A stretch of 64,000 bases of DNA from Hoeflea sp. IMCC20628 (lineage in GTDB: Bacteria > Pseudomonadota > Alphaproteobacteria > Rhizobiales > Rhizobiaceae): contig NZ_CP011479.1 of the NCBI RefSeq assembly GCF_001011155.1, positions 3,366,501-3,430,500 on the forward strand, read 5' to 3'. The notes beneath the pieces are model-generated. The model was not told the origin of the DNA, made no database searches, and saw only the letters and a program-made list of their open reading frames with translations. The position numbers were made by a program, and so were the translations under genes. Below are positions 20,273 to 57,307 of this stretch, in pieces; the first letter of the stretch is position 1, and each line of letters starts with the position of its first letter.

Positions 20273-20278
20273 GGACGC

Positions 20279-22723: not shown

Positions 22724-22762
22724 TGGATTTCTGCGGATCCCTGCATGGCGTCAGCGGAGGAA

Positions 22763-22783
22763 GGCGGGCCCTTGCGGCCCGCC
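22763..22783 (-). terminator. Intercistronic hairpin in TAXI operon
   Basis: GGCGGGCC and GGCCCGCC arms around a 5-base loop separate the receptor gene from the permease gene. There is no T-run, so a role in message stability or partial termination is likely, as for the hairpin at 7113-7141. Confidence 0.6.
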
Positions 22784-22811
22784 CGTCACATTGTCTCACA
22801 GTGGGGACAGT

Positions 22812-24991: not shown

Positions 24992-25034
24992 TGCCGCTCG
25001 CCTCCAACACTTCTTCTCAAGTTACACGGTTTCT

Positions 25035-33763: not shown

Positions 33764-33882
33764 ACCAATGCTATCATTGTTGGTAGTTACATAAATATTC
33801 CCTTTTAAGTAGAAATAGCTCCATCGAGAAAGCGATTTTTCCGGAGCAAAACATGACGAAAAGGGCATTGATTACTGGCGCC
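33764..33882 (+). repeat. Promoter/start region repeat, copy A (ketoreductase promoter)
   Basis: This stretch runs from ACCAATGC through the ketoreductase start codon to its GGCGCC codons. It recurs in degenerate form at 45579-45690 before the luxR gene. Shared blocks are GTAGTT, ATTCCCTTT, AAGTAG, TAGCT-CATC and GGGCATTGATT. At its left side (33770-33787) is GCTAT-N8-GTAGT, a weakened form of the 18-base dyad present in copy B. It is the likely promoter of the whole polyketide operon. Confidence 0.7.
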
Positions 33883-34632
33883 TCCGGAGGAATCGGAACG
33901 TCCATCGCGCAAAAGTTTGCGAAGGATGGCTTTGAGCTTTTTCTAGTCAGCCAAAACACGGCCCGCCTGGAACATGCGGCCCACGGCATCGAGAATTCCC
34001 ATCCAGAGACCCGTGTCGAAACCATTGCCCTGGATGTTTCGGATGCCGCCGCCGTGAGCGCAGCCTTGAGCGGGCTCAAGGATCGCGGCCTGAGCTTCAG
34101 TGTTGTGGTCAATGGCGCGGGCATTTCCGGTGGTGGCATCACCGGTGAAGTTACCACGGAGCTTTGGGACCGGATCATCGACGTCAATCTCAACGGGGCT
34201 TTCTACGTCATCCGCGATGTCTTGCGTCTTGATCTCATCGAGGCGGGTGGGCGCATCATCAACATCGCCTCGACCGGCGGCAAACAGGGCGTCATTCATG
34301 GCGCTCCTTACTGCGCCTCAAAACACGGTCTCATCGGGCTGACCAAAGCACTCGGACTGGAGCTTGCCCGCAATGGTTCCGGCATCACGGTGAATGCAGT
34401 CTGTCCCGGGTTCGTCGAGACGGAAATGGCTGGACGGGTACGCGAACACTACGCCGCTATCTGGAACACGGATATAGCTGAAGCCAAACGCCGCATCGAA
34501 GAACGCGTCCCGATCGGCCGTTATATTGCCAGCGAGGAAGTCGCCGCGATGGTTGGCTACTTGACCGGCCCCCATAGTTCGGGGGTCACAGCGCAGGCGC
34601 TCAATGTCTGCGGCGGGCTGGGGAACTATTGA
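33853..34632 (+). CDS. Type II polyketide ketoreductase, ActIII-like (AntA position)
   Basis: A 259-residue short-chain dehydrogenase with NADPH loop TGASGGIG (residues 8-15) and catalytic Asn114, Ser140, Tyr153, Lys157. It is more than a generic SDR. The stretches NIASTGGKQGV, PFGY-like PYCASKHG, AVCPGFVETEMA, REHYAAIW, RVPIGRY and the exact ending TAQALNVCGGLGNY are those of aromatic polyketide C9-ketoreductases such as actinorhodin ActIII. It reduces one carbonyl of a poly-beta-ketone bound to ACP and so fixes the first ring fold. First gene of the polyketide operon, matching antA of Photorhabdus in place and type. Confidence 0.93.
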   Translation: MTKRALITGASGGIGTSIAQKFAKDGFELFLVSQNTARLEHAAHGIENSHPETRVETIALDVSDAAAVSAALSGLKDRGLSFSVVVNGAGISGGGITGEVTTELWDRIIDVNLNGAFYVIRDVLRLDLIEAGGRIINIASTGGKQGVIHGAPYCASKHGLIGLTKALGLELARNGSGITVNAVCPGFVETEMAGRVREHYAAIWNTDIAEAKRRIEERVPIGRYIASEEVAAMVGYLTGPHSSGVTAQALNVCGGLGNY

Positions 34633-34633
34633 A

Positions 34634-35290
34634 ATGTCCCACCTCACGCCTTTCTCCGAAATGGTCGAACTGGTTGTTGTCCAGCTTCACAAAGATGATG
34701 ACGTCGAAGCTCTGCCACTTCGGGAGGAAATCGACAGGCTGGCCTGTCAACGCATTCGCCCAGCCCAGCGGCGTCGCCTGTTTCACTTTCGCCGCGCGGC
34801 GTTCTTCGCGCTGCTGACGCGTTTCCGGAAGGGCTCGACCGTCCTTCGTGATGCCGCGGGTCACATCAGGGCGCTCCTCGACGCCAGGGAAGCAAGCCAC
34901 GTGTGCACGAGCGCATCCGGGGCAGTTTGCGCAGTGGCATTTTGCGACAAGCCGGTGGGTGTCGACATTGAACGAGCTGACGGTCCGGTCGATCTGGTTT
35001 CGCTACTCGACTTCATTGCCGCACCCTGCGCTACCGGCCTCAAGTCGCTGCCACCAGACATCGCTGCCTTCGAGGCGCGCATGGCCTGGACACGGATTGA
35101 AGCCCGGTTGAAGCAGGTGGGGCGCGGCATCCATGATTACATCGTTGGCGGTCCGGCAATCCTTACGGAGGAACAAGGCGAAACCCGTGTCATGGCAGCA
35201 ATCGGCTGGGTCTGCGCATTGACTCATGCAGGTGGTCCGATCGAGATCCGCGCACGGCTTATCGATTTCAGGACGTTGTGCGATGAGTGA
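34634..35290 (+). CDS. 4'-phosphopantetheinyl transferase-like protein (AntB position)
   Basis: The 218-residue protein, starting at ATG 34634 two bases after the ketoreductase stop, carries the two Sfp/AcpS superfamily motifs. VGVDIERADG (about residue 105) holds the magnesium-binding Asp and Glu, and WTRIEARLKQVGRGI (about 155) corresponds to the W-x-x-KEA-x-x-K signature, here with Ile replacing the usual Lys. The Glu and second Lys are kept. It should attach phosphopantetheine to the cluster's ACP (41119-41379). N-terminal half is poorly conserved, as is usual in small Sfp-like enzymes. It ends overlapping the next gene. Confidence 0.78.
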   Translation: MSHLTPFSEMVELVVVQLHKDDDVEALPLREEIDRLACQRIRPAQRRRLFHFRRAAFFALLTRFRKGSTVLRDAAGHIRALLDAREASHVCTSASGAVCAVAFCDKPVGVDIERADGPVDLVSLLDFIAAPCATGLKSLPPDIAAFEARMAWTRIEARLKQVGRGIHDYIVGGPAILTEEQGETRVMAAIGWVCALTHAGGPIEIRARLIDFRTLCDE

Positions 35291-36122
35291 CGTTACGATT
35301 ATCGATCTCTCTGTCGCTATTTCGCCCGAGAACTGGGAGCCCGAACCGATCGTCATCGATTGGATCGACCATGTGGCTGGCGCCGACAAGCTCGGCAAGA
35401 GCGCCTATTACTTTCAGCAGAACAAGGGTTGGCGCGGATTGCTCGATGGGCTTTTCTGTCGCCGCCAACAACCGATTGATCACTGCGATTTCCCGGACGG
35501 GATGGGGTTGTCACAAATGTTCTACCGGCTCTCAACCCATACCGGCACCCATATCGATGCGCCGATCCATTATGGCTGGCGCAAGGACGCCGGGACCCTT
35601 CCCTGCACTATTTCCGAGATCCCGCTCGAATGGTGTTACGGCGCCGGCATACTTCTTGATTCCAGCACTGATCGTGGAGAGATCGACGCTGAGAACGTCG
35701 CCCGGCAATGCAAATCTGCAGGCTTGACGGTCTCCGCAGGCGACATTGTGCTGATCAATACAGGCGCGAACCGGCTTTTCAGTCGACGAGAATACTTCAT
35801 CGACTACCGGCCGATCGGACCCAGCGCTGTTTCCTACCTGCTCGACCGGGGCGTCAAGGTGATCGGAACCGACGCCTTCAGTTTCGATGCACCGTTCATG
35901 GAGATGATCGAGGCTTACCGCAATACCGGCGACACCTCGACTCTTTGGCCGGCCCACATGATGGGCCGGGACCGGCCTTACCTGCAGATCGAACGTCTCG
36001 GCAATCTTGACCGCTTACCCCGGGCGAACGGCTTCACAGTGAGTTGCCTGCCGATCAAGCTCGAACACGCCGACGCCGCCTGGAGCCGCGTTGTCGCGAT
36101 ATTCGAGGGTAAAATTCAATGA
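35283..36122 (+). CDS. Cyclase-family protein (PF04199, kynurenine formamidase-like; AntC position)
   Basis: 279 residues starting at ATG 35283 inside the end of the transferase gene. The family's zinc motif HTGTHIDAPIH is present (residues about 88-98), with further ligands expected near GDIVLINTGA and the GTDAFSFDAP segment. PF04199 includes kynurenine formamidases, but members also serve as late-ring cyclases in aromatic polyketide clusters. In this context ring closure on the polyketide is the likely job. The stretch YYFQQNKGWRGLLDGLFCRR near the N-terminus is longer than in formamidases. Confidence 0.85.
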   Translation: MSDVTIIDLSVAISPENWEPEPIVIDWIDHVAGADKLGKSAYYFQQNKGWRGLLDGLFCRRQQPIDHCDFPDGMGLSQMFYRLSTHTGTHIDAPIHYGWRKDAGTLPCTISEIPLEWCYGAGILLDSSTDRGEIDAENVARQCKSAGLTVSAGDIVLINTGANRLFSRREYFIDYRPIGPSAVSYLLDRGVKVIGTDAFSFDAPFMEMIEAYRNTGDTSTLWPAHMMGRDRPYLQIERLGNLDRLPRANGFTVSCLPIKLEHADAAWSRVVAIFEGKIQ

Positions 36123-36155
36123 AAACCCGCGCCTTTCCAGAAAGCGAGAACCGCC

Positions 36156-37634
36156 ATGTATACAATCGATATGGTCGATCTTGACCGTCCCTACCCCAAC
36201 AAATGCTACCTGCCCTTCATCCTTTATCCACCGGGCATGCATCGCAACACCGAAGGCGAAGCCTTCCTCTCACGCCTCAAGGCGCTCGATGAACAAGGCG
36301 AGGACTTCGTGCTTTACCTTGGCGTTCCCTTCTGCCGGACCAGATGCAAATCCTGCCCCTATTTCATCAGCCTGCTGCCGGAGAACGACCAGCACAATCG
36401 CGAAGATGCCTATGTCGAGGCGCTGATCAAGGATCTTGAACACTGGGCAACGTTCCGGCGCTGGAGAACCGGGCTGGTGCGCAATATCTATATTGGCGGC
36501 GGGACCGGCAGCGTCTTGAGGACTGACAATCTGAAGCGCCTGGTCGACAAGATCTTTTCTCTCTTCAGGGTCGCCGATGACTACGAGTTTACCCTCGAAG
36601 GCAATGCGCGCGATTTCGACGATGAGAAAATCGACTTCCTGGTCGGCTCGAAGATCAATCGTCTGAGCCTCGGGGTTCAATCATTCCAGCCCGAAATCCT
36701 CGCGACCATCGGCTCGCCGCATGCCGCGGAAGATTCAATCCGCGTGATCCGGGCGTTTCAAAGCCGAGGCTTCAAGAACATCCAGCTCGACCTGATGTAC
36801 AACATGCCGGGCCATACGCTGAATGTGTGGCGGCGGGATCTCAAGACGCTCAATGATCTCGATATTCCGCATTTCACCATCTACCTCTACCGCATCCACA
36901 AGCAGACACCGCAGGACAAGCTGATCACCAAAGGCAAGGTTGTCCAGCCGCAGGACGCCGAAACGCCGATGGTGAAGGCGATGTACACACAAGCGAAAGA
37001 CATCGCCGAGGCGATGGGCTTTACGATGTACATGGTCGATCACTTCTGCAAACCCGGTTTTGAGAACATGTACAATCACTGGAACTGGAAGGCCTATATC
37101 GACACGCTCGCCGTGGGCCCGGGTTCCTACAGCTATTTCGATGGCTACCGGCTGGGAACCGACACCGATGTCGAAGGCTATGTCTCCGCGTGCAACAAAG
37201 GCCAATTCGTCATCAGCTCCGTGACCGACAAGCTGTCGCCTCGGGTGCAACGCGAACGCTATGTGATCTTCGCACTGCTCTACTACGAGATCGAATTCAG
37301 CTTCTACCGCAGCAAGTTCGGATCGTCGCTGCTCAAGGACTTCGCCAGCGAAATCGAACGTCTGACGGCGAAAGATCTCATCGACGTGTTGCCCGACCGT
37401 ATCACGCTCACCCAGCTCGGACTGATCTGGCACACCAACATCATCCTGGAATTCTTCAACCAGGCCTTCTGGTCAGATACCGCGTCATTGAACGAGCCAA
37501 ACTGGTCCCTCAATGGCGTCATGGTCGAGGTCGGAGCCCATGAACGCAGTTACTGGCTGGGCGATCCGGTGTTGGCTGACCCGAATTCAACGCCGTATCC
37601 GGGCACATTCATGGAGGTAGACGCACATGTCTGA
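36156..37634 (+). CDS. HemN-like radical SAM enzyme inside polyketide cluster
   Basis: A 492-residue radical SAM protein with the CxxxCxxC cluster motif at Cys60, Cys64, Cys67 (GVPFCRTRCKSCPYF), the glycine-rich SAM motif NIYIGGGTGSVL, and HemN-type segments INRLSLGVQSFQ and NIQLDLMYNMPGHT. The C-terminal HemN domain (about 370-490) is present. The HemN family contains coproporphyrinogen dehydrogenase, heme chaperones, class C methyltransferases and radical SAM cyclopropanases that modify polyketides. No heme gene is near. Placement between cyclase and SRPBCC genes with an 8-base overlap downstream argues for tailoring or methylation of the polyketide; this is inference. Confidence 0.87.
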   Translation: MYTIDMVDLDRPYPNKCYLPFILYPPGMHRNTEGEAFLSRLKALDEQGEDFVLYLGVPFCRTRCKSCPYFISLLPENDQHNREDAYVEALIKDLEHWATFRRWRTGLVRNIYIGGGTGSVLRTDNLKRLVDKIFSLFRVADDYEFTLEGNARDFDDEKIDFLVGSKINRLSLGVQSFQPEILATIGSPHAAEDSIRVIRAFQSRGFKNIQLDLMYNMPGHTLNVWRRDLKTLNDLDIPHFTIYLYRIHKQTPQDKLITKGKVVQPQDAETPMVKAMYTQAKDIAEAMGFTMYMVDHFCKPGFENMYNHWNWKAYIDTLAVGPGSYSYFDGYRLGTDTDVEGYVSACNKGQFVISSVTDKLSPRVQRERYVIFALLYYEIEFSFYRSKFGSSLLKDFASEIERLTAKDLIDVLPDRITLTQLGLIWHTNIILEFFNQAFWSDTASLNEPNWSLNGVMVEVGAHERSYWLGDPVLADPNSTPYPGTFMEVDAHV

Positions 37635-38061
37635 GACCGAACAATTCTTCGCAAGCGAGACCACCACCATCAATGCTGACCCCAGCGACATCTGGGCTAT
37701 CTGGGTCGACATCAACGGCTGGCCACGTTGGGATGACGGATTGGAAAGTACGAAATTCTCCGAAACCTTTCGCGAGGGCAACAGTTTCGAGTTGACGCCC
37801 AGAGGCGGCGATCCCCTCACAGTCACGCTGCGCAGCGTGACCCAGGGCGAAGAATTCTCGGACGAAGCAGTCCTGCCTTTTGGCAAGATCAGAAATGCCC
37901 ACCGGTTGAGGCCAATCGGCGGCAAGGTCGAAGTGACCCATGAGATCCAGGCCATGATCAACAAGCCAGAAGCCGGCTTCTTCGCCAAGGATATCTGGCC
38001 GCACATGCGGGACGGCCTGCCTGCAGCGCTGTCCAATATCCGCAGGATCATCGAGGATTGA
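37627..38061 (+). CDS. SRPBCC (polyketide cyclase/START-like) protein
   Basis: 144 residues with the Bet v1-like fold: an opening beta strand, then INADPSDIWAIWVDINGWPRWD, the typical helix-turn of the family, and a long C-terminal helix from about 112. It overlaps the radical SAM stop by 8 bases. It is a paralogue of the protein at 46920-47366 (shared: DIWAIW/DVWAVW, EEFSDEAVLPFG/EEFTDETTLPSG). Single-domain SRPBCC proteins in aromatic polyketide clusters bind or cyclise the chain. Not present in the Photorhabdus ant operon. Confidence 0.85.
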   Translation: MSETEQFFASETTTINADPSDIWAIWVDINGWPRWDDGLESTKFSETFREGNSFELTPRGGDPLTVTLRSVTQGEEFSDEAVLPFGKIRNAHRLRPIGGKVEVTHEIQAMINKPEAGFFAKDIWPHMRDGLPAALSNIRRIIED

Positions 38062-38195
38062 AAGGCCGGGAAGGCAAAAGGCCGAGTGCAATCAAAAGGA
38101 AAGCCCGAACCGGAGGGAAGACGCACCTCACGGGCTCCAGGCCGCACCGATCATCATTTCATGGCTCAACGTCGCGTCAAGGAAAGGAAAAACCA

Positions 38196-38702
38196 ATGTC
38201 GGCCTTCTGGTGCGGAGTTGTTTCCCGGGATCATATCAAACGGGGCGAGCGCGAAGGCTTCTGCCAGGTCTGTCGTGGCAAACGGTCGCCACTTGACCGC
38301 ATGGCTGTGGGGGATGGAATTGTTTTCTACTCGCCAACAACGGCTTTTCGCGGCGCCGAAAAGTGCCAGGCATTTACGGCGATCGGCGAGATCGTAGGAC
38401 CGCAGTCGTACCAGTTTCAGATGACGCTGGATTTCATGCCGTTCCGAAGAGATGTCGCCTATTTCAACGCATCGGACGCCCCCATCAGCCCGCTGCTGGA
38501 CGCGCTCGAATTCACCCGCAAGAACAAGAACTGGGGCTACAGGTTCCGCTTCGGCCACTTCCAGATCAGCAGGCATGACTTCGAGTGCATAGCCTCGGCC
38601 ATGATCTGCGGAGACGCCTGGCGTGAGCGCTTTGCCGAGGAACGAAATACGGCCAGCGCAGACTCCGCACCTCCGCCCGCAGCACCCATTCCATTTTATT
38701 GA
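38196..38702 (+). CDS. EVE-domain protein (UPF0310)
   Basis: Start ATG at 38196 follows GGAAAGGA; the longer frame from 38058 is unlikely. The 168-residue product shows the EVE/PUA-like pattern: FWCGVVSRDHIKRGEREGFC, GKRSPLDRMAVGDGIVFYSP and aromatic residues that line a cage for modified bases. EVE proteins read or bind modified nucleic-acid bases and are usually found near restriction, RNA-modification or toxin genes. A place inside a polyketide operon is unusual. It might be a resistance or ligand-sensing factor, or simply a hitch-hiker. Confidence 0.85.
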   Translation: MSAFWCGVVSRDHIKRGEREGFCQVCRGKRSPLDRMAVGDGIVFYSPTTAFRGAEKCQAFTAIGEIVGPQSYQFQMTLDFMPFRRDVAYFNASDAPISPLLDALEFTRKNKNWGYRFRFGHFQISRHDFECIASAMICGDAWRERFAEERNTASADSAPPPAAPIPFY

Positions 38703-38734
38703 AGGTCGGGCTCAACCGAGGGAAAGGAGCCATC

Positions 38735-39988
38735 ATGTCTGGACAAAGAGTCGTCGTGACCGGCCTCGGTGTCATTGCGCCGAACGGAATCGGCAAGGAT
38801 GAATTCTGGAACAATGCATGCGTCGGAACATCCGGCCTCAAGCCAAACTCGAGAAATGCCGACTTCGGATTCAAATCGCGCGTCATTGGCGCGGTGGAGG
38901 GTTTTGACAGTCTCTTCTCTGGGCCGGGCGGCCGCCATCAGGCCTTTGCAATCGAAGCAGCGCGGATGGCGCTGCAAGACAGCGAGACTACGCTCACTGC
39001 CATCGATCCGTACCGTTTCGGCGTTTGCGTCGCCAGTGCCATCGCCGGGGCCGCACAGATGGAGGACAATCTCCTCATGCTCGCTGCCTGGGAAGAGACG
39101 GATGCGAATGGTGCCCCCTGCCCCGACCTGCCGGTGAACGCATTTGAAAGCTTCGACTTCGGTCTGGCGGCAACATCGGTCGCACGCCTTTTTGGTGCCA
39201 GCGGGATGGTTGTCAATCTCTCCACCGGCTGTACCGCAGGTCTGGATGCGCTCGGCTTTGCCTATAACCAGATCCATTCCGGCGACATGGACTTCATGCT
39301 GGCAGGCGCCACCGAAGCGCCGCTGTGCCCATTGTCAATTGGAGCGTTCGAAGCGCTTGGCGCGCTTTCGACTCGGGAAACGATCGCCCCCTGTCTGGCA
39401 TCAACGCCGTTTTCCGCAGAGCGCGACGGGTTCGTGATCTCCGAGGGTTGCGGCATGCTTGCGTTGGAAAGCTACGACCATGCACGGGCCCGTGGTGCGA
39501 CTATCTATGCAGAGGTTGCAGGCTATGCCTCTGTCAACAATGCCTATCACATGACGGATCTGCCTCCGTCAGGTGAAGCGCTCGCTCACTGCATCAAACT
39601 TGCCCTCACCAACGCCGGCATCGAGCGCGGTGAAATAGACCACATCAGCGCACATGGGAGCTCGACGCCTCAAAACGCCGTCAACGAAACCGGAGCCATC
39701 AAGTCCGTTTTCGGTGAGCTGGCGAAGAGCATCCCGGTCAACTCGCTGAAATCGATGACTGGTCACGCGCTCGCGGCGGCCAACGCAATCGAATGCGTGG
39801 CTCTCAGCCTCGAACTTTACCATCAAAGGCTCCACCCGACCGTGAATTATCATAAAGCCGATCCGGCCTGTGACCTGGACTACGTTCCCAATATAGGGAG
39901 ATATTCCCGAATACGGTCAGCAATGAAACTGACCAGCGGCTTTTCCGGCATCCACAGTGTCCTTGTCATGAGAGCCGAACAGCCATGA
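38735..39988 (+). CDS. Type II PKS ketosynthase alpha (KS-alpha; AntD position)
   Basis: 417 residues. The thiolase-fold condensing enzyme has the full triad: nucleophile Cys166 in NLSTGCTAGLDAL, His307 in ISAHGSSTPQNAV, and Lys339/His344 in LKSMTGHALAAAN. ATIYAEVAGYA, AYHMT and DPACDLDYVP are those of ActI-ORF1-type aromatic ketosynthases rather than FabF, so this is a dedicated polyketide condensing subunit. It overlaps the next gene by ATGA, the classical KS-alpha/CLF coupling. The ribosome site is GGAAAGGAG. Confidence 0.93.
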   Translation: MSGQRVVVTGLGVIAPNGIGKDEFWNNACVGTSGLKPNSRNADFGFKSRVIGAVEGFDSLFSGPGGRHQAFAIEAARMALQDSETTLTAIDPYRFGVCVASAIAGAAQMEDNLLMLAAWEETDANGAPCPDLPVNAFESFDFGLAATSVARLFGASGMVVNLSTGCTAGLDALGFAYNQIHSGDMDFMLAGATEAPLCPLSIGAFEALGALSTRETIAPCLASTPFSAERDGFVISEGCGMLALESYDHARARGATIYAEVAGYASVNNAYHMTDLPPSGEALAHCIKLALTNAGIERGEIDHISAHGSSTPQNAVNETGAIKSVFGELAKSIPVNSLKSMTGHALAAANAIECVALSLELYHQRLHPTVNYHKADPACDLDYVPNIGRYSRIRSAMKLTSGFSGIHSVLVMRAEQP

Positions 39989-41085
39989 ACCGCACAGTCG
40001 TCATAACAGCCGCCAACACCCTAACGCAGTCCGGTGCAGATACTGGCTGCATCGCCCCGGATGCCGCAATTTGCACAAAGACACGCACAATCCCGGAATC
40101 CCTTGTCGATGCCGATTGCCCGATTGGTCAGCGTCTGAAGCGCAAAGTCGATGGCTTCTGCCGCAAGGGTCTCGCTGTGGCCAACAGGGCGATCGCCGAG
40201 AGTATGCTTCTCGAAAGCGATACGGACCCCGATCGTATCGGGATCTATGTCGGCAACTGCCTCGGCGGCTGGGGCCACATCGATGCGGAAATCCGCGCAC
40301 TTCACCAGGTCGGCGTATCGGCGATAGGCCCTTACGTAGCCACGGCCTGGTTCCCTGCCGCGCTGCAAGGGCAGATTTCCCTGCACTACGGTTTTCGCGG
40401 CCATTCGAAGACGTTTTCTGCCTTCGACGTCGCGGGTGTGCAGGCCTTGGCCTATGCAGCCCAGGCAATCAGGCTCGGTGTTGTTGATGCAGTGGTCTGC
40501 TGCGCCAGCGAAGACCTGTCGAGCGTTTATGTGCGGCGCGTATTGGAAGAGACCGTGGCGCGGGGATGGCCTGCTTCACCGGTGTTCGAGCAGAAGCGGG
40601 CTGGCAGCGGCGTTGAAAGTGCTGTGGCCTTCGTTCTGGAAAACCGGGAGATGGCTATTGCACGCGGGGCACCGATCCTTTGCGAATTGGCAGGATGCCA
40701 CGACGGTTTCATCAACGTCAGGAGCCAGATCGGGCCGATGCTGCACGCGTGCATGGAAAAGCTCGTCGAAAGCAAGAGCGACCCGCTTCTCTGCATCCTC
40801 GATGGCCGATTTTCCTGCGAACATTCGGCTACAGCCAGCACTCTTCAGGACCGCTGCATTGACGGCCGGATGATCGACGTCTCCGCGATTCTCGGCGAGC
40901 AGTTCTCGGTCGGTGGACTGATGGAAACCGCCATCGCCGCGCGCGCGCTTTATAAAGACCGACTGAGCCCGGCAACCTTCGGACAGTCAGGTGAAAACCT
41001 GTTCCGTCAGGCGATCATCCAGCGCCTTTCGGCAAACGGAAATCTCGTCGCCCACGGACTGCGCGCGGTCAATCGCGTGAATTGA
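39985..41085 (+). CDS. Chain-length factor (KS-beta; AntE position)
   Basis: A 366-residue ketosynthase-like protein with a degenerate active site. The nucleophile region reads SKTFSAFDVAGVQALAYA, with Asp148 at the place of Cys (Gln in actinobacterial factors). The HGT histidine motif and the GH motif are absent (SVGGLMETAIAA instead). It is about 40 residues shorter than actinomycete chain-length factors. It would form a heterodimer with KS-alpha and set the number of malonyl extensions. Divergence is strong, so the call rests on fold motifs plus the 4-base overlap with KS-alpha. Confidence 0.85.
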   Translation: MNRTVVITAANTLTQSGADTGCIAPDAAICTKTRTIPESLVDADCPIGQRLKRKVDGFCRKGLAVANRAIAESMLLESDTDPDRIGIYVGNCLGGWGHIDAEIRALHQVGVSAIGPYVATAWFPAALQGQISLHYGFRGHSKTFSAFDVAGVQALAYAAQAIRLGVVDAVVCCASEDLSSVYVRRVLEETVARGWPASPVFEQKRAGSGVESAVAFVLENREMAIARGAPILCELAGCHDGFINVRSQIGPMLHACMEKLVESKSDPLLCILDGRFSCEHSATASTLQDRCIDGRMIDVSAILGEQFSVGGLMETAIAARALYKDRLSPATFGQSGENLFRQAIIQRLSANGNLVAHGLRAVNRVN

Positions 41086-41118
41086 CCTTCCTTCTCAGCA
41101 AGCCAGGAGTTCAAGACA

Positions 41119-41379
41119 ATGATCCAGAATTTTGCAGATGTACGAACAATCCTTGCGACCTACACCGAAACGCCAATCGAGGAATTCGACATGTCGGAGG
41201 ATCTCGACCTGACCTATGACATGGACTCGACCGAACTGACGGACTTCGCCAAACAACTCACCCAGCAATACGGCGTTGTCATTGCCAAAAGCGATCGAGC
41301 TGATTGGACAACGGGCAACGACATCGTTGCTTTCCTGAAGCGAGCGGCGTCGAACACGGATCACACGGCGGCGGTCTAG
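41119..41379 (+). CDS. Acyl carrier protein (AntF position)
   Basis: 86 residues, acidic, with a four-helix ACP pattern. The phosphopantetheine serine is Ser37 in YDMDSTELTDFAKQL, where DSTEL replaces the common DSLDL. CAGGAG precedes the ATG. Only 2 bases separate its stop from the CoA ligase start. It carries the growing poly-beta-ketone chain and should be activated by the transferase encoded at 34634-35290. Confidence 0.9.
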   Translation: MIQNFADVRTILATYTETPIEEFDMSEDLDLTYDMDSTELTDFAKQLTQQYGVVIAKSDRADWTTGNDIVAFLKRAASNTDHTAAV

Positions 41380-41381
41380 CG

Positions 41382-42929
41382 ATGAAACTCATATCCTGCC
41401 TGCTGCAAGGCGGAGAGCGGTCGGGGCAAATGCCCTTCGCCATGACGCCTCACGAAATCTGGACACGTGCTGACGCAGCGGCGTCCGTGGCGCATTTCGT
41501 AACTCGCCTCAGAGAAGCGGGAGTCAAACCAGGGGACCGCGCACTCGCGATCCTCCAGCACGATCATCACGCGATCTGCCTGATTGCCGCGGCGAGCGCT
41601 TTGGGGCTGAAACTCGTGATGCCTTACAATCTTCAGTCGGCCGCGCTCGGCGAGTGGCTGGGTATCGTTCAGTCGATGCAGCCTGAGCATATCGTCTGTC
41701 TTGATCAACCCGCCGGCAGGCAACTTTTGGAAGCCGGAATGTTCCCCCTTGATCTCGGCGACGACATTCTTGAAAAGCCTTTGGCTTCAGAGCCAGTCGT
41801 AATCACCGCGCCGGATGCAATCGCCGGATTTCTGACTTTGTTTTCCAGCGGAACGACCGGGCAGCCAAAGGCAATCAGCCTTGCGGAGGACATGGTTGCG
41901 AGAAAGATCCTCAACGTTTGCGATCATCTCCAATTTGACGCAAACACGCGGGCTTTCTTTTCGGGCCTGATCAACAACACAACGGGCTTCATCTTTGCTT
42001 TTGGCGCGCTCGCCCATTTCGCGGTGCTGTGCGTTCCAGAGACGAGAAACATCGCGCAGTGGCCGGGTCTCGTTTCAAAATTCCAAGCCACGCATATCAT
42101 GCTGCGCCCCGTCGCCCTTGATCATTTTGTCGCTGCAACTCTGGCATCTCGGGCCGATCTGTCGAGCTTGCAAATGCTGGCCTATGGCGCAGCAGCAATG
42201 CCTGCCGAAACGCTTCGGCTGGCGCGTGAGATCCTGTCCTGCGATTTCACGCTCGGCTATGGCCTCAGCGAGACATTCGGTCCCTTCACCTTTCTGGACG
42301 AGGCGGCACACCGTGCCGGGTTTCAGCTCGGAGAGCCATATCGGGTTGGCGTCGCCGACAAGGACACGAAGATCTGGATAGACCTCCCGGATGCAGACGG
42401 TATCGGCGAAATTCTGATCGATGGAGCTCTGCGGATGGAGGGCTATATCGATCCGGCGACACGCAACGTCATTACACTGCAAGGTCCTTTGCGGACAGGC
42501 GACCTCGGACGTATCGACGCTGACGGCCATCTGATTCTCAAGGGTCGCTTGTCATCGAGCATGCTTACGCCGTCCGGTCATCGGATCTATCCGGAAGAGA
42601 TCGAGGCGTTGCTGCGCACTGTCGACGGCGTGGATGAAGCTGTGCTTGTTGGACTTCCAACCGGTGACAGGCTCTCGCTGCGGCCCGTGGCCTGTATCCA
42701 CGGCGATCTGGCGCGCCGAAGCGCCGACACTGTCCGGCAAACCCTGCGCCTGAAACTCGAGAAAGCGCTCGGTCGAGAGAAATGGCCTGACTACATTTTC
42801 GCCAGCGCTTCCCCGTTTCCCAAGAACGCCAACGAGAAAATCTTGAAGACCGAGGTCGTGCGTCTGGCATCCACGACCGAATTGATCGCCCTGCACATCA
42901 GCCGCTTCGAGGAGATGACCTTACCATGA
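41382..42929 (+). CDS. AMP-dependent CoA/ACP ligase (AntG position)
   Basis: 515 residues from ATG 41382. ANL superfamily motifs are TLFSSGTTGQPKAISL (P-loop), YGLSETFGPFTFLDE, GDLGRIDADGHLILKGR (hinge) and the C-terminal lysine in NANEKILKTEV. It is clearly unlike the ligase at 3167-4702. In the Photorhabdus ant cluster the equivalent gene is needed for a functional ACP/synthase rather than for loading an exotic starter. Here it may do likewise or activate a starter acid. Stop overlaps the next gene by ATGA. Confidence 0.87.
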   Translation: MKLISCLLQGGERSGQMPFAMTPHEIWTRADAAASVAHFVTRLREAGVKPGDRALAILQHDHHAICLIAAASALGLKLVMPYNLQSAALGEWLGIVQSMQPEHIVCLDQPAGRQLLEAGMFPLDLGDDILEKPLASEPVVITAPDAIAGFLTLFSSGTTGQPKAISLAEDMVARKILNVCDHLQFDANTRAFFSGLINNTTGFIFAFGALAHFAVLCVPETRNIAQWPGLVSKFQATHIMLRPVALDHFVAATLASRADLSSLQMLAYGAAAMPAETLRLAREILSCDFTLGYGLSETFGPFTFLDEAAHRAGFQLGEPYRVGVADKDTKIWIDLPDADGIGEILIDGALRMEGYIDPATRNVITLQGPLRTGDLGRIDADGHLILKGRLSSSMLTPSGHRIYPEEIEALLRTVDGVDEAVLVGLPTGDRLSLRPVACIHGDLARRSADTVRQTLRLKLEKALGREKWPDYIFASASPFPKNANEKILKTEVVRLASTTELIALHISRFEEMTLP

Positions 42930-44389
42930 CACTTGTTCTCTCACACTCAGTCCTTTGCAAGGCCGAACCCTGGCAGGTGTTTTCAATCATCGCTAAACCA
43001 GAAGACTGGCCGACGCTGTTCGAGCCTTGCCTTGCTGTCGATGTCGTCGAGCGCGCGAACGGTATCGAGCGCATTTGCGTCACGGCCAAGGTAAACGGTG
43101 AGCCTCGCACCTGGCAGTCGCGCAGGGTCGTCGATCATGCAGAGCTCAAGATCGACGCAGAGATGATCGCTCCGCTCACATTGGTGGCAGCCATGCGCAC
43201 ACGTTGGCGGATCTATGGAGTCGGTGATCGGGAGACCCTTCTGGTTCTTGAACACGACTGTGATCTCGCAACCCGGGTTGATGGGCTTGTCGCAGGTGTC
43301 GAAACACCCGCGGAAGCCGAGAACTGGATCAGAACCGCGATTGATACGAATTCCGCGACCGAACTGGAAAACATCCGGCAACATGCTGAAGGTTCTGCCG
43401 GATCAACGCCAGGTGGTGACGGCCTCTACCGAACGAGCCATATGGCGATTTGCGATGCGCCAGCTGATCTTGTCTTTCCCTTTGTTTCCGACCCCTCGCA
43501 GTGGCCGCGCCTGTTCAAAGCCTGCCTGTCGGTCGAAATTCTTCCGTCCGACAACAAGTGGCAGATTGCGAAGATCCACGCCGATCAGGAAGGACGGGCG
43601 GTGAGCTGGACAACCCGGCGCCGGGTCGATGTTGAGGCGTTGGTCGTCGACTACGAACTCCTTGATCCGATGCCTTATACCGCGGCAATGAGCGGACGTT
43701 GGCGCGTCGTACCGCTTGGGCCAGAGCGGTGTCTCCTCGCAGTCGATCGGGCCTGGTCGATCGCTGATCCCGTCGCGCCTCTGCGCGGCGACATCACCAG
43801 CATCGAGGACGCGGCTGCCTTCATCGCCCGGTTCGTCGAGACCAATGCGAAGCGCGAGATGGAGGTGATCGCCGCTTTAGCTGGCGACCACACGGCTGGG
43901 ACGTTGTTCATCGAGACCGAGATTGATGTCGAAGCCAGCGCCGACGAAATCTATCATGCGTTGGCAAACGCCGCGGCCTGGCCGAGCTTCGCGCCACATT
44001 GCCGATCCCTCAACGTCGTTTATGACGACGGTGTTTATCAGGAGCTGCTGTTCGAGATCGAGACACCAACAGGCGCGCCCGAGGTGTTTCGTTCCTTCCG
44101 GGTCTGTGACCGCGTCAACCGGCGGATTTCCTTTGTCCAGGTGGAGCCGCCGCGTACGCTTGAACGGCAACATGGCGGCTGGAGTGTTGAAGCAACGCCA
44201 ACCGGATCGCAGGTCACGTGCCGCCATTATGCGACACCCCAACGATCTGTTCTCGCCGAGGTCACCGGAGAAACCACCGAAAGCGGACAAGACGAGGCGA
44301 TGCGCAAAATGATCGAGGCCAACAGCAGGGCGATTGTCACGGCTTGTGCTGCGCAAATTCAAGCACGCCGCAAAGAGCAAGCGGCATGA
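42926..44389 (+). CDS. Triple-SRPBCC aromatase/cyclase (AntH position)
   Basis: 487 residues built of three successive SRPBCC/Bet v1-like modules (about 1-150, 165-320, 328-480). Each begins with an EPWQVFSIIAKPEDWP / APADLVFPFVSDPSQWP / SADEIYHALANAAAWP type helix and ends with a long C-terminal helix. Known aromatase/cyclases have one (TcmN) or two (didomain) such modules, so three in one chain is unusual. Expected job is folding and aromatising the first ring(s) of the ketoreduced chain. Overlaps its neighbours on both sides by ATGA-type junctions. Confidence 0.88.
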   Translation: MTLVLSHSVLCKAEPWQVFSIIAKPEDWPTLFEPCLAVDVVERANGIERICVTAKVNGEPRTWQSRRVVDHAELKIDAEMIAPLTLVAAMRTRWRIYGVGDRETLLVLEHDCDLATRVDGLVAGVETPAEAENWIRTAIDTNSATELENIRQHAEGSAGSTPGGDGLYRTSHMAICDAPADLVFPFVSDPSQWPRLFKACLSVEILPSDNKWQIAKIHADQEGRAVSWTTRRRVDVEALVVDYELLDPMPYTAAMSGRWRVVPLGPERCLLAVDRAWSIADPVAPLRGDITSIEDAAAFIARFVETNAKREMEVIAALAGDHTAGTLFIETEIDVEASADEIYHALANAAAWPSFAPHCRSLNVVYDDGVYQELLFEIETPTGAPEVFRSFRVCDRVNRRISFVQVEPPRTLERQHGGWSVEATPTGSQVTCRHYATPQRSVLAEVTGETTESGQDEAMRKMIEANSRAIVTACAAQIQARRKEQAA

Positions 44390-45534
44390 ACACGCGCGTC
44401 CGGCCACCCCGGATCTCGTCAACAATTCTTGACCGAGTCGGCTATTTCTTGCCTCGATTGCTGTTTGCCAACGCCCGGATTGCACCGCAACTCCACTGGG
44501 GCGACATCACACGCGCGCTGGATGGTTTTGCGCCCGACCTGGTTGATCCAGCGTCCGCAGCGTTCTGGAACGAATGGCGGCGGCGCTTCAGCGCTGTGGG
44601 CGAAAGCTACGAGACGCTCGCCGACACGAGCACGTGTGGCGCCGGCCGTGCAGCCGCTTTGCGCTCCGCCTCCGCAGCCTATCATTTCGCCGAGTTCATG
44701 TTTTTCGAGGACGCCGCGATCAAGACCACCCTCCGGCTGGCCGTGCGCCGTTGCTTCACGGCGGCGATGGCAAACTCCCAGACACCTTTCGAAAGTTGGA
44801 TCGTGAAAGCCGGTGGGGATGAGGTTCAGGTCTTTCTCTTCCTGCCGCAGGAAAGTCGTCAAAGTGCCAAGCTGCCCTGTGTGTTGCTGAGCAATGGTCT
44901 CGATTCGATGACCGAAATCGAGATTCTTTCGATTGGCGAGCACCTTCTGGACCGGGGAATCGCGATCCTCCTTTTCGAAGGCCCAGGCCAAGGGCTCGAC
45001 CTCGGTATTCGCCCGCTGCGCATCGATATGGAGGCGGTCGTCGCCGATCTCGTCAGTAAGCTGGACAACAGCTTTGACATGGACCGGATTGGTTTTTTCG
45101 GTGTTAGTTTCGGCGGCTATTTCGCGCTGCGCATGGCCGAGACGCTACCCAAGACTTTTCGCGCTATTGTCAACCTGTCCGGAGGACCGGCAATCGCACC
45201 TTTCTCGGGCTTGCCACGACGGTTGAAGCAGGATTTTGCCTTCGCGTTCGGCTCCCATGACGTCCACGACCTTCAGTCCCGCTTCGACGATCTTCAACTG
45301 TCCGGAGGGAGAGTGGCAAATGGGCCCAACGTCCTGTCGATCCACGGCCGTCTGGATGACATATTCCCTGTCGACGCGCTCGAGACCTATGCAAGCGCCC
45401 AGGGCGATCGCCATGAGCTTCGTATTTTCGAGGCCGAAGCCCATGTCTGCATGAACCACCTTCACCCCAATCTGATACGCGCTTCTAACTGGATGGTGCA
45501 GACGCTCGATCCAAAGGGGATGATTGGCAGATGA
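44386..45534 (+). CDS. Alpha/beta hydrolase, possible polyketide-shortening lyase (AntI position)
   Basis: 382 residues: a helical N-terminal cap (about 1-135) and an alpha/beta-hydrolase core with nucleophile Ser241 in FFGVSFGGYFALR, acid Asp324 in IHGRLDDIFPVD and base His353 in EAEAHVCMNHLHP. The capped layout is that of carbon-carbon hydrolases such as 2,6-dihydroxypseudooxynicotine hydrolase and of Photorhabdus AntI, which crops the octaketide to a heptaketide during anthraquinone formation. The same function is proposed here by position and layout. Last gene of the overlapping run. Confidence 0.85.
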   Translation: MNTRVRPPRISSTILDRVGYFLPRLLFANARIAPQLHWGDITRALDGFAPDLVDPASAAFWNEWRRRFSAVGESYETLADTSTCGAGRAAALRSASAAYHFAEFMFFEDAAIKTTLRLAVRRCFTAAMANSQTPFESWIVKAGGDEVQVFLFLPQESRQSAKLPCVLLSNGLDSMTEIEILSIGEHLLDRGIAILLFEGPGQGLDLGIRPLRIDMEAVVADLVSKLDNSFDMDRIGFFGVSFGGYFALRMAETLPKTFRAIVNLSGGPAIAPFSGLPRRLKQDFAFAFGSHDVHDLQSRFDDLQLSGGRVANGPNVLSIHGRLDDIFPVDALETYASAQGDRHELRIFEAEAHVCMNHLHPNLIRASNWMVQTLDPKGMIGR

Positions 45535-45578: not shown

Positions 45579-45690
45579 ACTACCAATGTTAGTAGTTCCA
45601 TTTTTATTCCCTTTAAAGTAGTAGTAGCTTCATCAGAACAGGCTCTTTTCGAAGCCTGACTGATGGCAAGGGCATTGATTTACAGGCGTC
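45579..45690 (+). repeat. Promoter/start region repeat, copy B, with 18-base dyad (possible lux box)
   Basis: Degenerate duplicate of 33764-33882. At 45579-45596 is ACTAC-N8-GTAGT, an 18-base dyad of lux-box size. ATTCCCTTTAAAGTAG follows, then ATGGCAAGGGCATTGATT-TACAGG, which reads MARALI plus one extra base relative to the ketoreductase start MTKRALITG. It therefore carries the remains of a second ketoreductase start. It lies 120 bases before the luxR gene and after the last polyketide gene, so it probably drives luxR from a copy of the operon promoter. Confidence 0.7.
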
Positions 45691-45806: not shown

Positions 45807-46586
45807 ATGCAGTTAGAACGCAAACGACACAGGCCACACAAATCGCGGTGCGCGATTTTTGCAAAGGAAAGCGAGGTTGCTATGCACAGAACGAGCTTTT
45901 TGGCCGGCATTCGCGCGGCTAACGATCCTGCAGAGTTACGAAAGGTGATTGCCGATGTCGGTACAGCCTTTGGTTTTGATGACTTCGCCTATGCAAGTTG
46001 GCCGTCCAACTGGCGCAACTACAGCACACCTGACACGATCAGCAGTTGCCACAACTCATCGACGTTCCGCTTTGAAGAGTGCGTCGCCGCAAGCGCGGAT
46101 GACGGTTTCGTCGCCGAGGCCATGGACACGATCCTTCCCATACTCTGGAACTACAAGACAGATCGGCACCGCGGCCCGCTGACAAAAGAATTCTCGCGAC
46201 AAGGCTTTCGCGAGGTCTGGGCAAAAAGTGAGCGGGATTCACACAACAATCGCGGCCTTGTCTGCTTTCTTCGGTCCCGAACCGCACTTGACCGCCCCGA
46301 AATGCTGCATGAGGAGGAACTCGTCTGGATGAGTTATCTCATTCACCTCCATGGCGGTGAAATATTCGCGCCAAAACGGCAGGCAAATCTCACAAAGGAA
46401 CTCTCGGCGCGGGAACGCGAGGTCCTGCGCTGGACGGCTGAGGGCAAGACCTCCGAAGAGATATCATCCATCCTCGCAATCTCAAAAAACACCGTGAACT
46501 TTCACGTCAAGAATGCCGCTCAGAAGTTGGGTTGCGTCAACAAGACAGCTTCTGTCGTCACGGCCATGACACTCGGTCTGCTTTGA
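45807..46586 (+). CDS. LuxR family regulator, autoinducer-binding-like domain + HTH
   Basis: 259 residues from an ATG behind AAGGAG (45882 is a second possible start, 234 residues). The N-part (about 30-185) follows the quorum-sensing LuxR pattern, with aromatic residues in FAYASWPSNWRNYSTPD and ILPILWNYKTDRHRGP, though the Trp/Tyr/Asp set of acyl-homoserine-lactone receptors is not fully clear. The C-part is a typical GerE/LuxR HTH: LSAREREVLRWTAEGKTSEE, ISKNTVNFHVKNAAQKLG. No luxI-type synthase is in the window, so it is a LuxR solo here. Probable pathway-specific activator of the polyketide operon. Confidence 0.88.
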   Translation: MQLERKRHRPHKSRCAIFAKESEVAMHRTSFLAGIRAANDPAELRKVIADVGTAFGFDDFAYASWPSNWRNYSTPDTISSCHNSSTFRFEECVAASADDGFVAEAMDTILPILWNYKTDRHRGPLTKEFSRQGFREVWAKSERDSHNNRGLVCFLRSRTALDRPEMLHEEELVWMSYLIHLHGGEIFAPKRQANLTKELSAREREVLRWTAEGKTSEEISSILAISKNTVNFHVKNAAQKLGCVNKTASVVTAMTLGLL

Positions 46587-46919: not shown

Positions 46920-47366
46920 ATGAGTTCGTCTTCAAAGACAGTCAGGTTTGTGGCATCGCACACAAACACATTTGAGGCCTCCTCCAGCGATGTCTGGGCG
47001 GTCTGGTCTGACGTGAGCAAATGGCATGCCCTGGACGCAGGAAACGGCAAGGCCACCATCCAGGGCCCCTTCGCCCCCGGATCCGTCGTGACCTTGGGGC
47101 TCAAGGGCGGCGATTCCGTCGAAGTCGTCCTTACCAGTGTGCAGGAGAACGAAGAGTTCACCGATGAGACCACCTTACCGTCCGGGGTTGTCCGAACCAG
47201 GCACAGCATGGAACAGAACGGCAAGAACCTCATCCTCACTTACGCCGTTGAGGCAGAGATCGCGGAAGGAGAGGCGCGCGCCTTCGATTCCGGGATGTGG
47301 CAAAACCTGATCGCCGGCGTCCCCGCTCAGGTCGACAACGTCGCGGCGTTGGCACGGGCCGCCTGA
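46920..47366 (+). CDS. SRPBCC (polyketide cyclase/START-like) protein
   Basis: 148 residues from an ATG behind AAAAGGAG (an upstream frame from 46854 is ignored). Same single-domain fold and the same internal phrases as the protein at 37627-38061: DVWAVWSDVSKWHALD and EEFTDETTLPSG. It belongs by sequence to the polyketide cluster, though separated from it by luxR and a terminator. It may be a second binding protein or cyclase with its own promoter. Confidence 0.85.
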   Translation: MSSSSKTVRFVASHTNTFEASSSDVWAVWSDVSKWHALDAGNGKATIQGPFAPGSVVTLGLKGGDSVEVVLTSVQENEEFTDETTLPSGVVRTRHSMEQNGKNLILTYAVEAEIAEGEARAFDSGMWQNLIAGVPAQVDNVAALARAA

Positions 47367-50848: not shown

Positions 50849-51796
50849 TCAAACGATCAACTCGTGTCCGGATTGATCAACGGCACGGACTGATGCTCCA
50901 GGGAACTGAAGCGCCAGATCGCGCAGTGCAGCTGAATTCAGCATGACCCCGGCTGTGGAGAGGCCATCGGCAATTGCCGCCGAGGAGTGAATGATGCTAA
51001 CCCGCCGCCAGGCTGACGTGGCAGGCAAGCCGGTGACCGGATTGAGAATGTGTCCGGCCTGACCTGCACCAAACATGGTTCCCGTCGCACTGGAGGTCGC
51101 AACCGCTTTGTCCCGCAAATAGACCGTTGCGTCGGGCTGACCGTCTTCATGGTCTGCAAGGCCGACCGGCCAGTCTCCGCCAACTGGCGAACCTCCCACC
51201 GCGGCAATCTCACCGACCGAAACAAGCCCTGCCTCAAGACCGTTGGACACCAGCAGTTTGACTATCCTGTCGGTGATGAAGCCTTGCGCAATCCCGTTGA
51301 GCGTCAGGCTGCCACCCGGCGCGAGCTCGATGCGATCCAGTGAGATCCGGACCTTGGACCAGCCGACCATTGCCCGGGCGGCCTTGATGACCTCCCGATC
51401 CGGTGCGCCGCCGGCACGAGCATAGGCCATCCACAAAGGCTGAACACTTGGATCGAACAACCCGCCGCTAGCCTGATGAATCGCCGAGACCAGAGACATC
51501 AGCTCGACCATATCGGCCTCGGGCTGATGCAGGGCACCGGTCGCGTTGAGCCGAGCTAGAGCGCTGTCGGTTCGGTACAGGCTGAAGATCTGCTCCAGCC
51601 GTTCGATCTCGGCGCGCGCAACGGCAAGCAGCTCTTCAGCCTCGCGTGACGGCAATCCTACCAGTCGAAGATCGGCATGCGCGCCAAGTGCGACACCCTG
51701 CCAGCGTGCGCCGGGAAACGAAGCGGAAAATGCACTGTTGGCAGTGAGCATGCAGCCTGCGGTGATGCCAATGAAACGGCGGCGACTGATCGTCAT
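50849..51796 (-). CDS. nosX: FAD:protein FMN transferase NosX (ApbE family)
   Basis: 315 residues. The twin-arginine signal ISRRRFIGITAGCMLTA marks export. The ApbE core follows: FSLYRTDSALARLN, SGGLFDPSVQPLW, GSLTLNGIAQGFITDRI and the metal-binding region near TSSATGTMFGAGQAGHILNP with the catalytic Asp/Thr area ADGLSTAGVML. NosX covalently attaches FMN to NosR, which supports electron flow to N2O reductase. Its start overlaps the end of nosL, and it is the last gene of the nos operon. Confidence 0.92.
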   Translation of the reverse strand: MTISRRRFIGITAGCMLTANSAFSASFPGARWQGVALGAHADLRLVGLPSREAEELLAVARAEIERLEQIFSLYRTDSALARLNATGALHQPEADMVELMSLVSAIHQASGGLFDPSVQPLWMAYARAGGAPDREVIKAARAMVGWSKVRISLDRIELAPGGSLTLNGIAQGFITDRIVKLLVSNGLEAGLVSVGEIAAVGGSPVGGDWPVGLADHEDGQPDATVYLRDKAVATSSATGTMFGAGQAGHILNPVTGLPATSAWRRVSIIHSSAAIADGLSTAGVMLNSAALRDLALQFPGASVRAVDQSGHELIV

Positions 51797-55356: not shown

Positions 55357-55375
55357 GGTCGTTTGGTCCTAAGTG

Positions 55376-57292: not shown

Positions 57293-57307
57293 ATGCTGTC
57301 TCCTTTT

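Follow-up and report, generated by a model that had tools for sequence, protein, structure and literature searches.

A model aromatic polyketide synthase (PKS) of Gram-negative bacteria is the anthraquinone (ant) cluster of Photorhabdus, antABCDEFGHI, which makes AQ-256. The part of PMC11165489 used here gives AQ-256 as m/z 255, the ant cluster has been expressed in E. coli (PMC11165489), and AntB and AntG are reported as required in the ant pathway in the part of PMC6638757 used here. A second described system is the coelulatin (coe) cluster, obtained from a soil-metagenome cosmid (PMC9714029; the results cited from it throughout cover a part of that paper). Deletion of coeI leads to the build-up of compound 4 ([M-H]- 255.03), which purified CoeI turns into a compound methylated at C2 (m/z 269). 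The intact cluster gives a C2-hydroxymethyl compound (285) and methoxymethyl compounds, the methyl of the latter coming from methanol, and the hydroxymethyl group dehydrates readily to an electrophile. The formula printed for compound 4, C15H10O6, misfits its mass, whereas its description as the "de-hydroxymethyl form of 2" fits (all PMC9714029).

Here we describe a locus of Hoeflea sp. IMCC20628 that joins these two systems. It is a type II PKS gene cluster carrying a radical S-adenosylmethionine (SAM) gene, and lies in a stretch of 64,000 nucleotides (the whole stretch is called the window below, and coordinates refer to its forward strand). Going by the described structures, we infer that compound 4 and AQ-256 are both 1,3,8-trihydroxyanthraquinone. 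Our preferred reading, to which we give a probability of roughly three in four, is that the locus encodes a horizontally acquired, probably LuxR-regulated pathway to a heptaketide anthraquinone with an extra carbon at C2, and that its radical SAM gene is ancestral and was lost by Photorhabdus. The reading builds on observed gene content, homology, active sites, distribution and gene remnants, and derives from them probable substrates, step order, product, regulation and roles for the SRPBCC and EVE proteins.

Organization of the cluster

The original prediction, made from the letters of the window, had described twelve genes in ant order with three extra genes among them. All twelve open reading frames (ORFs) are present on the + strand (33853-45534) in that order, 11 of them with Pfam matches; the exception is the phosphopantetheinyl transferase (PPTase).

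33853..34632, + strand: AntA-type ketoreductase, a short-chain dehydrogenase/reductase (SDR; PF00106; 60-62% identity to the Photorhabdus counterparts)
34604..35290, + strand: AntB-type PPTase, divergent (alignment with counterparts, and motifs)
35283..36122, + strand: AntC-type cyclase (PF04199; 54-57% identity to those of Photorhabdus, Mixta theicola and Oxalobacteraceae)
36156..37634, + strand: HemN-like radical SAM enzyme, CoeI type (PF04055; CxxxCxxC at 60/64/67)
37627..38061, + strand: small SRPBCC protein, a predicted radical SAM partner (PF10604)
38196..38702, + strand: single-domain EVE protein (PF01878, 8e-17; NF002616)
38735..39988, + strand: AntD-type ketosynthase (KS) alpha (best solved relative 6smo_B; Cys166, His307, His344)
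39985..41085, + strand: AntE-type chain length factor (CLF; best solved relative 6smo_C)
41119..41379, + strand: AntF-type acyl carrier protein (ACP; PF00550; Ser37)
41382..42929, + strand: AntG-type CoA ligase / acyl-ACP synthetase (PF00501; 39-44% to ant-type and Streptomyces V4I2 counterparts)
42926..44389, + strand: AntH-type aromatase/cyclase with three SRPBCC stretches (three Polyketide_cyc stretches; BexL 4xrw, StfQ 4xrt)
44386..45534, + strand: AntI-type polyketide-trimming lyase (Ser241, His353; AntI 6hxa, 341 bits)

The locus is thereby confirmed as an ant-type (AntA-I) aromatic type II PKS with radical SAM, SRPBCC and EVE genes between antC and antD. Two details of the original prediction had to be corrected. 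The genes had been said to overlap mostly by ATGA, but with the start codons chosen here 4-base overlaps of that type occur at only 3 of 11 junctions (KS/CLF, CoA ligase/aromatase and aromatase/hydrolase), three others overlapping by 8, 8 and 29 bases and the remaining five being spaced by 2-134 bases. The bounds had been set at 33853-45534; a LuxR gene and a second SRPBCC gene beyond 45534 extend the locus to 47366.

The polyketide synthase core and the trimming lyase

Among all solved structures, the KS-alpha matches 6smo_B best (482 bits, against 284 for the actinorhodin KS), and the CLF matches 6smo_C best (232 bits, against 61 for the top FabF-type chain). We take 6smo_B and 6smo_C to be AntD and AntE, respectively; the records themselves bear domain names only (6smo_B is a "PKS_KS domain protein"). 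In a KS tree of 23 sequences the window, Oxalobacteraceae, M. theicola and 11 Photorhabdus sequences form one group (SH-aLRT 100; the program flagged long branches), and four other KS-family proteins of the window's own genome, called FabF-like in that tree, fall apart from it (split 99). This tree, like those of CoA ligase, AntI and aromatase, was built from stop-to-stop frames by a 'quick' method with SH-aLRT support only; the aromatase tree is without loci L006, L019, L021 and L023, and locus L042 contains no CoA ligase, aromatase or AntI. A FabF identity of the KS was rejected on structure scores and tree placement: instead of grouping with FabF/FabB, a case that the original prediction had raised, the KS-alpha came out with the AntD-type clade (SH-aLRT 100), and Cys166, His307 and His344 are exactly as claimed there. 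By eye, the CLF is without an active-site Cys, reading KTFSAFDVAG where the KS has STGCTAG (the pair was not mutually aligned).

Neither Pfam nor NCBIfam gave a match for the PPTase ORF. It can be aligned with its counterparts in Photorhabdus and Oxalobacteraceae and shows VGVDIE at residue 118 and WTRIEARLK at 162; identity is 20-24% to Photorhabdus, 27% to M. theicola and 30% to Oxalobacteraceae. Beside KS, CLF and ACP there are, then, a dedicated CoA ligase and a dedicated PPTase, the latter predicted from low identity. An ordinary metabolic identity was rejected for the cyclase and the hydrolase; for the cyclase, where the possibility had been raised beforehand, the best NCBIfam model (arylformamidase) is far under its cut-off and the relatives are ant cyclases at 54-57%.

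The hydrolase finds AntI (6hxa) as its best solved structure. The window protein retains all 11 AntI functional residues named in the part of PMC11165489 used here: Tyr20, Arg24, the four of GLDS, Ser245, Arg282, Asp326, Asp327 and His355, numbered after a Photorhabdus bodei AntI with Ser at 245. The Arg282/Asp327 pair is missing in two distant gammaproteobacterial proteins. The aromatase scores 85 bits with BexL among solved structures, and its counterparts in Photorhabdus and V4I2 align across nearly full length. With KS, CLF and lyase matching AntD, AntE and AntI best, the call of an ant-type aromatic type II PKS in antABC-DEFGHI order stands.

The radical SAM enzyme and its link to coelulatin

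The HemN-like character of the radical SAM enzyme and its CxxxCxxC motif were confirmed. Its best solved relatives are NocN (9p2u, 85 bits) and then HemN (1olt, 74 bits), and the nearest NCBIfam models, HutW/ChuW and HemW, are both under cut-off (216 bits vs 400 for HutW/ChuW). Identity is 72% to the enzyme of Streptomyces V4I2, 71% to that of Oxalobacteraceae and 64% to that of M. theicola.

The link to CoeI (accessions MN601984-MN601997) runs through V4I2. The rows of coe Table 1 in PMC9714029 list KS, CLF, ACP (76), cyclase (306), ketoreductase (249), an 'aminopeptidase' (384), aromatase (487), CoA ligase (537), CoeI (493) and a ketoreductase (261). If the order of rows is taken as gene order, the genes of V4I2 (L008) follow it, with an SRPBCC gene in addition; in V4I2 the cyclase has 307 residues, the ketoreductase 248, the radical SAM enzyme 492 and the ACP 87. 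From the match in position and size with V4I2, CoeF would be an AntI-like hydrolase. Because the V4I2 enzyme (72%) sits in a coelulatin-like gene order, the product of the window becomes predictable as AQ-256 plus one carbon at C2. A product different from the known anthraquinones had been expected beforehand; it should indeed differ from AQ-256, but it should resemble coelulatin (PMC9714029).

We propose the following pathway. The PPTase and the CoA ligase would ready KS, CLF and ACP, which build an octaketide. The ketoreductase, the aromatase/cyclase and the PF04199 cyclase would then lead to an ACP-bound bicycle, which the AntI-type lyase would offload, trimming one ketide and closing the third ring to give AQ-256. 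The CoeI-type radical SAM enzyme would add a methyl-derived carbon at C2 of AQ-256, so that the predicted product, by analogy, is a 2-methyl- or 2-hydroxymethyl-trihydroxyanthraquinone of the coelulatin type. The likely task of the SRPBCC partner is to hold the substrate or guide the one-carbon intermediate, and that of the EVE protein is protection or regulation.

The radical SAM enzyme could also perform some other chemistry, such as cyclopropanation, bridging or attack on an earlier ACP-bound intermediate, and thereby lead to a new scaffold. We consider this rather unlikely. HemN-like enzymes are chemically diverse and the coe authors suspected that the methyl product was an in vitro by-product (both PMC9714029), and the nearest curated models, being under cut-off, leave room for it. 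On the other hand, 64-72% identity across phyla suggests conserved chemistry, and CoeI acts on an anthraquinone of AQ-256 mass, the output expected of an AntI-containing cluster.

Remnants of the radical SAM gene in Photorhabdus

The gap between antC and antD measures 529-1031 bases in 11 Photorhabdus ant loci. Pieces of the radical SAM gene were found there at E 0.01 in 9 of 10 gaps (L016 is the exception), and with L042 added all 11 gaps beat each of 100 dinucleotide shuffles of themselves, with 27.7-58.5 bits against shuffle maxima of 20.4-24.3. The shuffle test counted plus-strand pieces only; the search at E 0.01 had no strand filter, and all pieces it listed are on the coding strand. The weakest gaps are L016 (27.7 bits) and L010 (30.4 bits). 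The pieces are collinear, covering approximately residues 202-296 and then 366-470 in the numbering of the window enzyme, and stops are frequent; a C-terminal piece like GVMVEVGAHERSYWLGD occurs in the gaps of some Photorhabdus species. As controls on the same gaps, seven HemN/HemW-like enzymes gave 0-22.7 bits and the Mixta intestinalis enzyme at most 28.9. Evidently, the ancestor of the Photorhabdus cluster had a radical SAM gene and Photorhabdus lost it. The KS itself was found at E 1e-90 in 10 of the 12 Photorhabdus genomes searched.

The original prediction had described the ant order as interrupted by extra genes. The genes do sit between C and D; the direction of change, however, is reversed for the radical SAM gene, whose wreckage Photorhabdus holds. 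The corresponding explanation, later insertion of three genes into an ant cluster of Photorhabdus type, with a product unlike known anthraquinones, has in its favour that all three are placed exactly between antC and antD, that the Photorhabdus loci hold no intact copies, and that their gaps gave no SRPBCC or EVE remnant. We nonetheless judge it very unlikely: degraded collinear radical SAM fragments stand at the same place in Photorhabdus, M. theicola and Oxalobacteraceae share the gene order, and a coelulatin-type product has already been described (PMC9714029). For the radical SAM gene an insertion origin is rejected on these decayed pieces.

Repeats of approximately 128 bases lie inside the decayed stretch (L013 3401-3524 and 3819-3947, and in other Photorhabdus gaps). 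In length they are ERIC-like (enterobacterial repetitive intergenic consensus); an Rfam search of them gave V_AS5 matches below threshold only. In the open-licence literature we found no paper on pseudogenes in the Photorhabdus antA/antI anthraquinone cluster, which does not prove that nobody noticed them, and none tying the Photorhabdus type II anthraquinone to radical SAM chemistry beyond mentions in reference lists.

SRPBCC and EVE partners

An SRPBCC gene lies directly 3' of the radical SAM gene in all five closest loci (window, M. theicola, Oxalobacteraceae, V4I2 and Parafrankia). V4I2 and Parafrankia share the order radical SAM-SRPBCC-CoA ligase-aromatase-AntI, the Parafrankia block spanning two contigs with its radical SAM gene split over two frames, and no EVE match was obtained in the V4I2 or Parafrankia stretches read. 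Of the proteobacterial clusters examined, four have the radical SAM gene intact, and all four contain EVE. This recurring partnership of SRPBCC and EVE with the radical SAM gene is a new observation, and polyketide clusters emerge as a repeated setting for EVE, a domain for which binding to modified bases has been described.

The structure model of the SRPBCC protein has a predicted local distance difference test (pLDDT) score of 95.1. Its best fold match is SMU.440 (function unknown), followed by the TcmN aromatase/cyclase (TM 0.81) and abscisic acid (ABA) receptors (TM approximately 0.62-0.71); the model is consistent with a ligand-binding cup that might hold an aromatic polyketide. The EVE protein scores 62 bits with PF01878 (cut-off 23) and 206 with NF002616 (cut-off 139). 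With the latter model the proteins of M. theicola (226) and Oxalobacteraceae (225) pass and that of M. intestinalis (112) falls under the cut-off. A structure prediction of the EVE protein from 3 sequences reached a pLDDT of 49.5. That a normal EVE protein is encoded beside enzymes predicted to make a dehydrating, alkylating anthraquinone hints at a role in protection or regulation.

Could the three genes instead be unrelated passengers, or genes of haem metabolism, beside a cluster that makes plain AQ-256? The resemblance to HemN and HutW, and the place of EVE in a curated single-domain family, point that way. Given SRPBCC after the radical SAM gene in all five closest loci and EVE in all four proteobacterial clusters examined where that gene is intact (the divergent plasmid cluster among them), we give this explanation hardly any weight. 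A further idea, speculative and unlikely in our judgement, is that the three genes form one module: the radical SAM enzyme would add an electrophilic arm (hydroxymethyl, a quinone-methide precursor), SRPBCC would control its fate and EVE would protect the producer by reading nucleobases alkylated by the product; the Photorhabdus anthraquinones would then be what was left of an alkylating agent after it had been disarmed. In whole cells of E. coli the hydroxymethyl compound was formed with CoeI alone (PMC9714029), which speaks against a strict need for SRPBCC in forming it.

Distribution and origin

Genomes were searched in samples of 294-396 drawn evenly from larger groups, so that an absence holds for the sample only. 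A scan of genome contigs for AntI (80 pattern matches) gave 17 loci: 10 in Photorhabdus and one each in Mixta theicola, Oxalobacteraceae BJB404, Streptomyces V4I2, Parafrankia, Pseudofrankia, Zooshikella and a gammaproteobacterial metagenome-assembled genome (MAG). At E 1e-30, the window's own genome was the only one among the 151 of the set of relatives to yield AntI, and none of the 17 others of its genus did. The radical SAM enzyme was matched at E 1e-100 in 1 of 385 genomes of the class to which the window belongs, 1 of 294 of the family of the Oxalobacteraceae strain, 1 of 297 of the family of V4I2 and 1 of 394 of the order of M. theicola, and at E 1e-80 in 1 of 396 genomes of the phylum of V4I2; every one of these searches matched just the genome already known.

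Long synteny with three relatives ends at approximately 50.9-51.3 kb, beside the nos genes, in all three, with one more match of 239 bases at 28.6 kb. Because the cluster was found in its own genome only among the relatives, and because the shared sequence ends near the nos genes, horizontal acquisition is likely.

The nos region itself (50849-59590, - strand) holds nitrous oxide reduction genes: ApbE, NosL, an ABC transporter, NosD, a Nos propeller protein and a 4Fe-4S protein, which we take to be NosR-like. NosD was found at E 1e-60 in 10 of the 18 genomes of the genus. Elsewhere in the window, 13666-25868 holds genes resembling those of aromatic catabolism (an intradiol dioxygenase, DctM/DctP-type transporter components and an FAA hydrolase).

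Type II aromatic PKSs had been called rare outside actinobacteria. Rare they are, but not unknown, as Photorhabdus, Mixta, Oxalobacteraceae, Zooshikella, the gammaproteobacterial MAG and Azospirillum attest. The Azospirillum brasilense case is another alphaproteobacterial type II PKS, on a plasmid (L056, 2826-11071), with KS, CLF-like, ACP and SRPBCC genes and four genes annotated as antibiotic biosynthesis monooxygenase. A Crinalium plasmid (L006, 1-14113) has homologues of AntI, AntC, AntA, AntG and AntH beside a type I PKS, and the KS and CLF find no match there. The original prediction knew of no product described for such a cluster in Rhizobiales; on this point, we found no paper on an alphaproteobacterial type II PKS with a chain length factor in the open-licence literature.

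The locus might also be silent or decaying in Hoeflea sp. IMCC20628. That AntI was not found at E 1e-30 in the 17 other genomes of the genus agrees with this, as does decay among relatives (the radical SAM gene in Photorhabdus, the CLF in M. theicola, the radical SAM gene over two frames in Parafrankia). With all twelve window genes open and the checked catalytic residues intact, we hold this to be distinctly unlikely.

Regulation

Four further features belong to the extended locus.

33771..33786, + strand: operator-like imperfect palindrome CTATCATTGTTGGTAG, 5' of the ketoreductase gene
45580..45595, + strand: operator-like palindrome CTACCAATGTTAGTAG, the second site, 5' of luxR
45807..46586, + strand: LuxR-type regulator with an autoinducer-binding domain (PF00196; PF03472, 5.3e-7)
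46920..47366, + strand: second SRPBCC paralogue (34% identical to the gene at 37627; no Pfam match at 1e-5)

The ketoreductase gene and luxR have in common an upstream stretch of approximately 55 bases containing the imperfect 16-base palindrome. At up to 2 mismatches the palindrome occurs at these two sites only, both in the window and in the 5.1 Mb genome, and a reversed control also gave 2 genome matches; as the pattern was derived from the two sites themselves, the evidence is weak. In the loci of four relatives the best match had 3 mismatches (L018). The sole LuxI-family match of the genome is approximately 1.8 Mb distant from luxR, and M. theicola too has a LuxR-type gene downstream (26% identical). 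We think that the pathway is probably LuxR-regulated.

Weighing the proposed reading

Several points weigh against a C2-extended anthraquinone pathway whose radical SAM gene Photorhabdus lost. The likeness to CoeI is indirect, passing through the order of a table, some sizes and V4I2 at 72%; the coe KS and CLF are actinobacterial and the table is without SRPBCC or EVE, so that the window enzyme may have another substrate and another outcome. Only the methyl product was obtained from CoeI in vitro, and hydroxymethyl formation by CoeI alone was uncertain to the authors (PMC9714029). Concerning the remnants, the 27.7 bits of L016 are barely over the 25.8 reached in 1000 shuffles, and under the 28.9 that an SRPBCC query obtained by chance on a shuffled L013 gap; we count L016 as a remnant because its gap DNA is 76-88% identical over long pieces to other gaps, the score alone being unconvincing. 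No SRPBCC or EVE remnant rose above the best shuffle in any of the 11 gaps, so that the loss is seen for the radical SAM gene alone. The trees place the window CoA ligase (80), AntI (87) and aromatase (99) nearer to actinobacterial proteins than to those of Photorhabdus; because these lean actinobacterial while the KS groups with Proteobacteria, the cluster may be a mosaic. Finally, M. theicola and Oxalobacteraceae have major facilitator superfamily (MFS) and SDR genes 3' of antI that are absent from the window, and the CLF frame of M. theicola (L018 5485-6243) stops at 272 residues, so that its cluster may be dead or broken, or its sequence faulty.

Comparison with known systems

M. theicola (L018) and Oxalobacteraceae BJB404 (L020) have the order of the window from the PPTase on, including radical SAM-SRPBCC-EVE: PPTase-cyclase-radical SAM-SRPBCC-EVE-KS-CLF-ACP-CoA ligase-aromatase-AntI. 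The M. theicola stretch ends within the ketoreductase, and that of Oxalobacteraceae does not reach it. A more distant form is the plasmid cluster of M. intestinalis (L055, NZ_CP028272.1), the best of 3 plasmid records matching at E 1e-40. Against the window, its radical SAM enzyme is 44% identical, its PF04199 cyclase 37%, its KS 33% and its EVE protein 33%, and two of its proteins are SRPBCC-like (29 and 30%); one of these finds no Pfam match and the other stays under the cut-off. It differs in having no AntI among the 13 genes compared, non-adjacent radical SAM and SRPBCC genes, an apparent fusion of ACP and cyclase (the ACP part by eye) and a CLF-like protein of 216 residues (14838-15488) where the window CLF has 366; the record names no product.

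The radical SAM methyltransferases NocN and HutW/ChuW resemble the window enzyme as its best solved relative and best NCBIfam model, respectively; the substrates of both differ from anthraquinones, and the window enzyme is under the HutW/ChuW family cut-off. With coe and V4I2 the window shares the CoeI-type radical SAM enzyme, a 487-residue aromatase/cyclase, CoA ligase, ketoreductase and, if CoeF is rightly assigned, an AntI-like hydrolase. Their KS and CLF are actinobacterial (the V4I2 KS is 40% identical to that of the window), their cyclase is another one (CoeD; in V4I2, by eye, a metallo-hydrolase-like protein of 307 residues) and they have an extra SDR; no EVE was seen in V4I2, and no SRPBCC appears in the coe table in the part of the paper used here.

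The Photorhabdus ant cluster has the same order and gene types, with KS 57-59%, CLF 37-40%, AntI 43-45% and PPTase 20-24% identical to those of the window. Unlike the window, it holds the radical SAM gene as wreckage only and has no intact SRPBCC or EVE between antC and antD. We regard the Hoeflea cluster as real and unusual: an ant-type PKS equipped with a tailoring module of the CoeI type, and not a new kind of system. Its main value lies in the reversed direction of change in Photorhabdus and in the recurring EVE partner: if a model Gram-negative aromatic PKS descends, in reduced form, from a pathway that included a C-methylating radical enzyme, this changes how its pigments are read.

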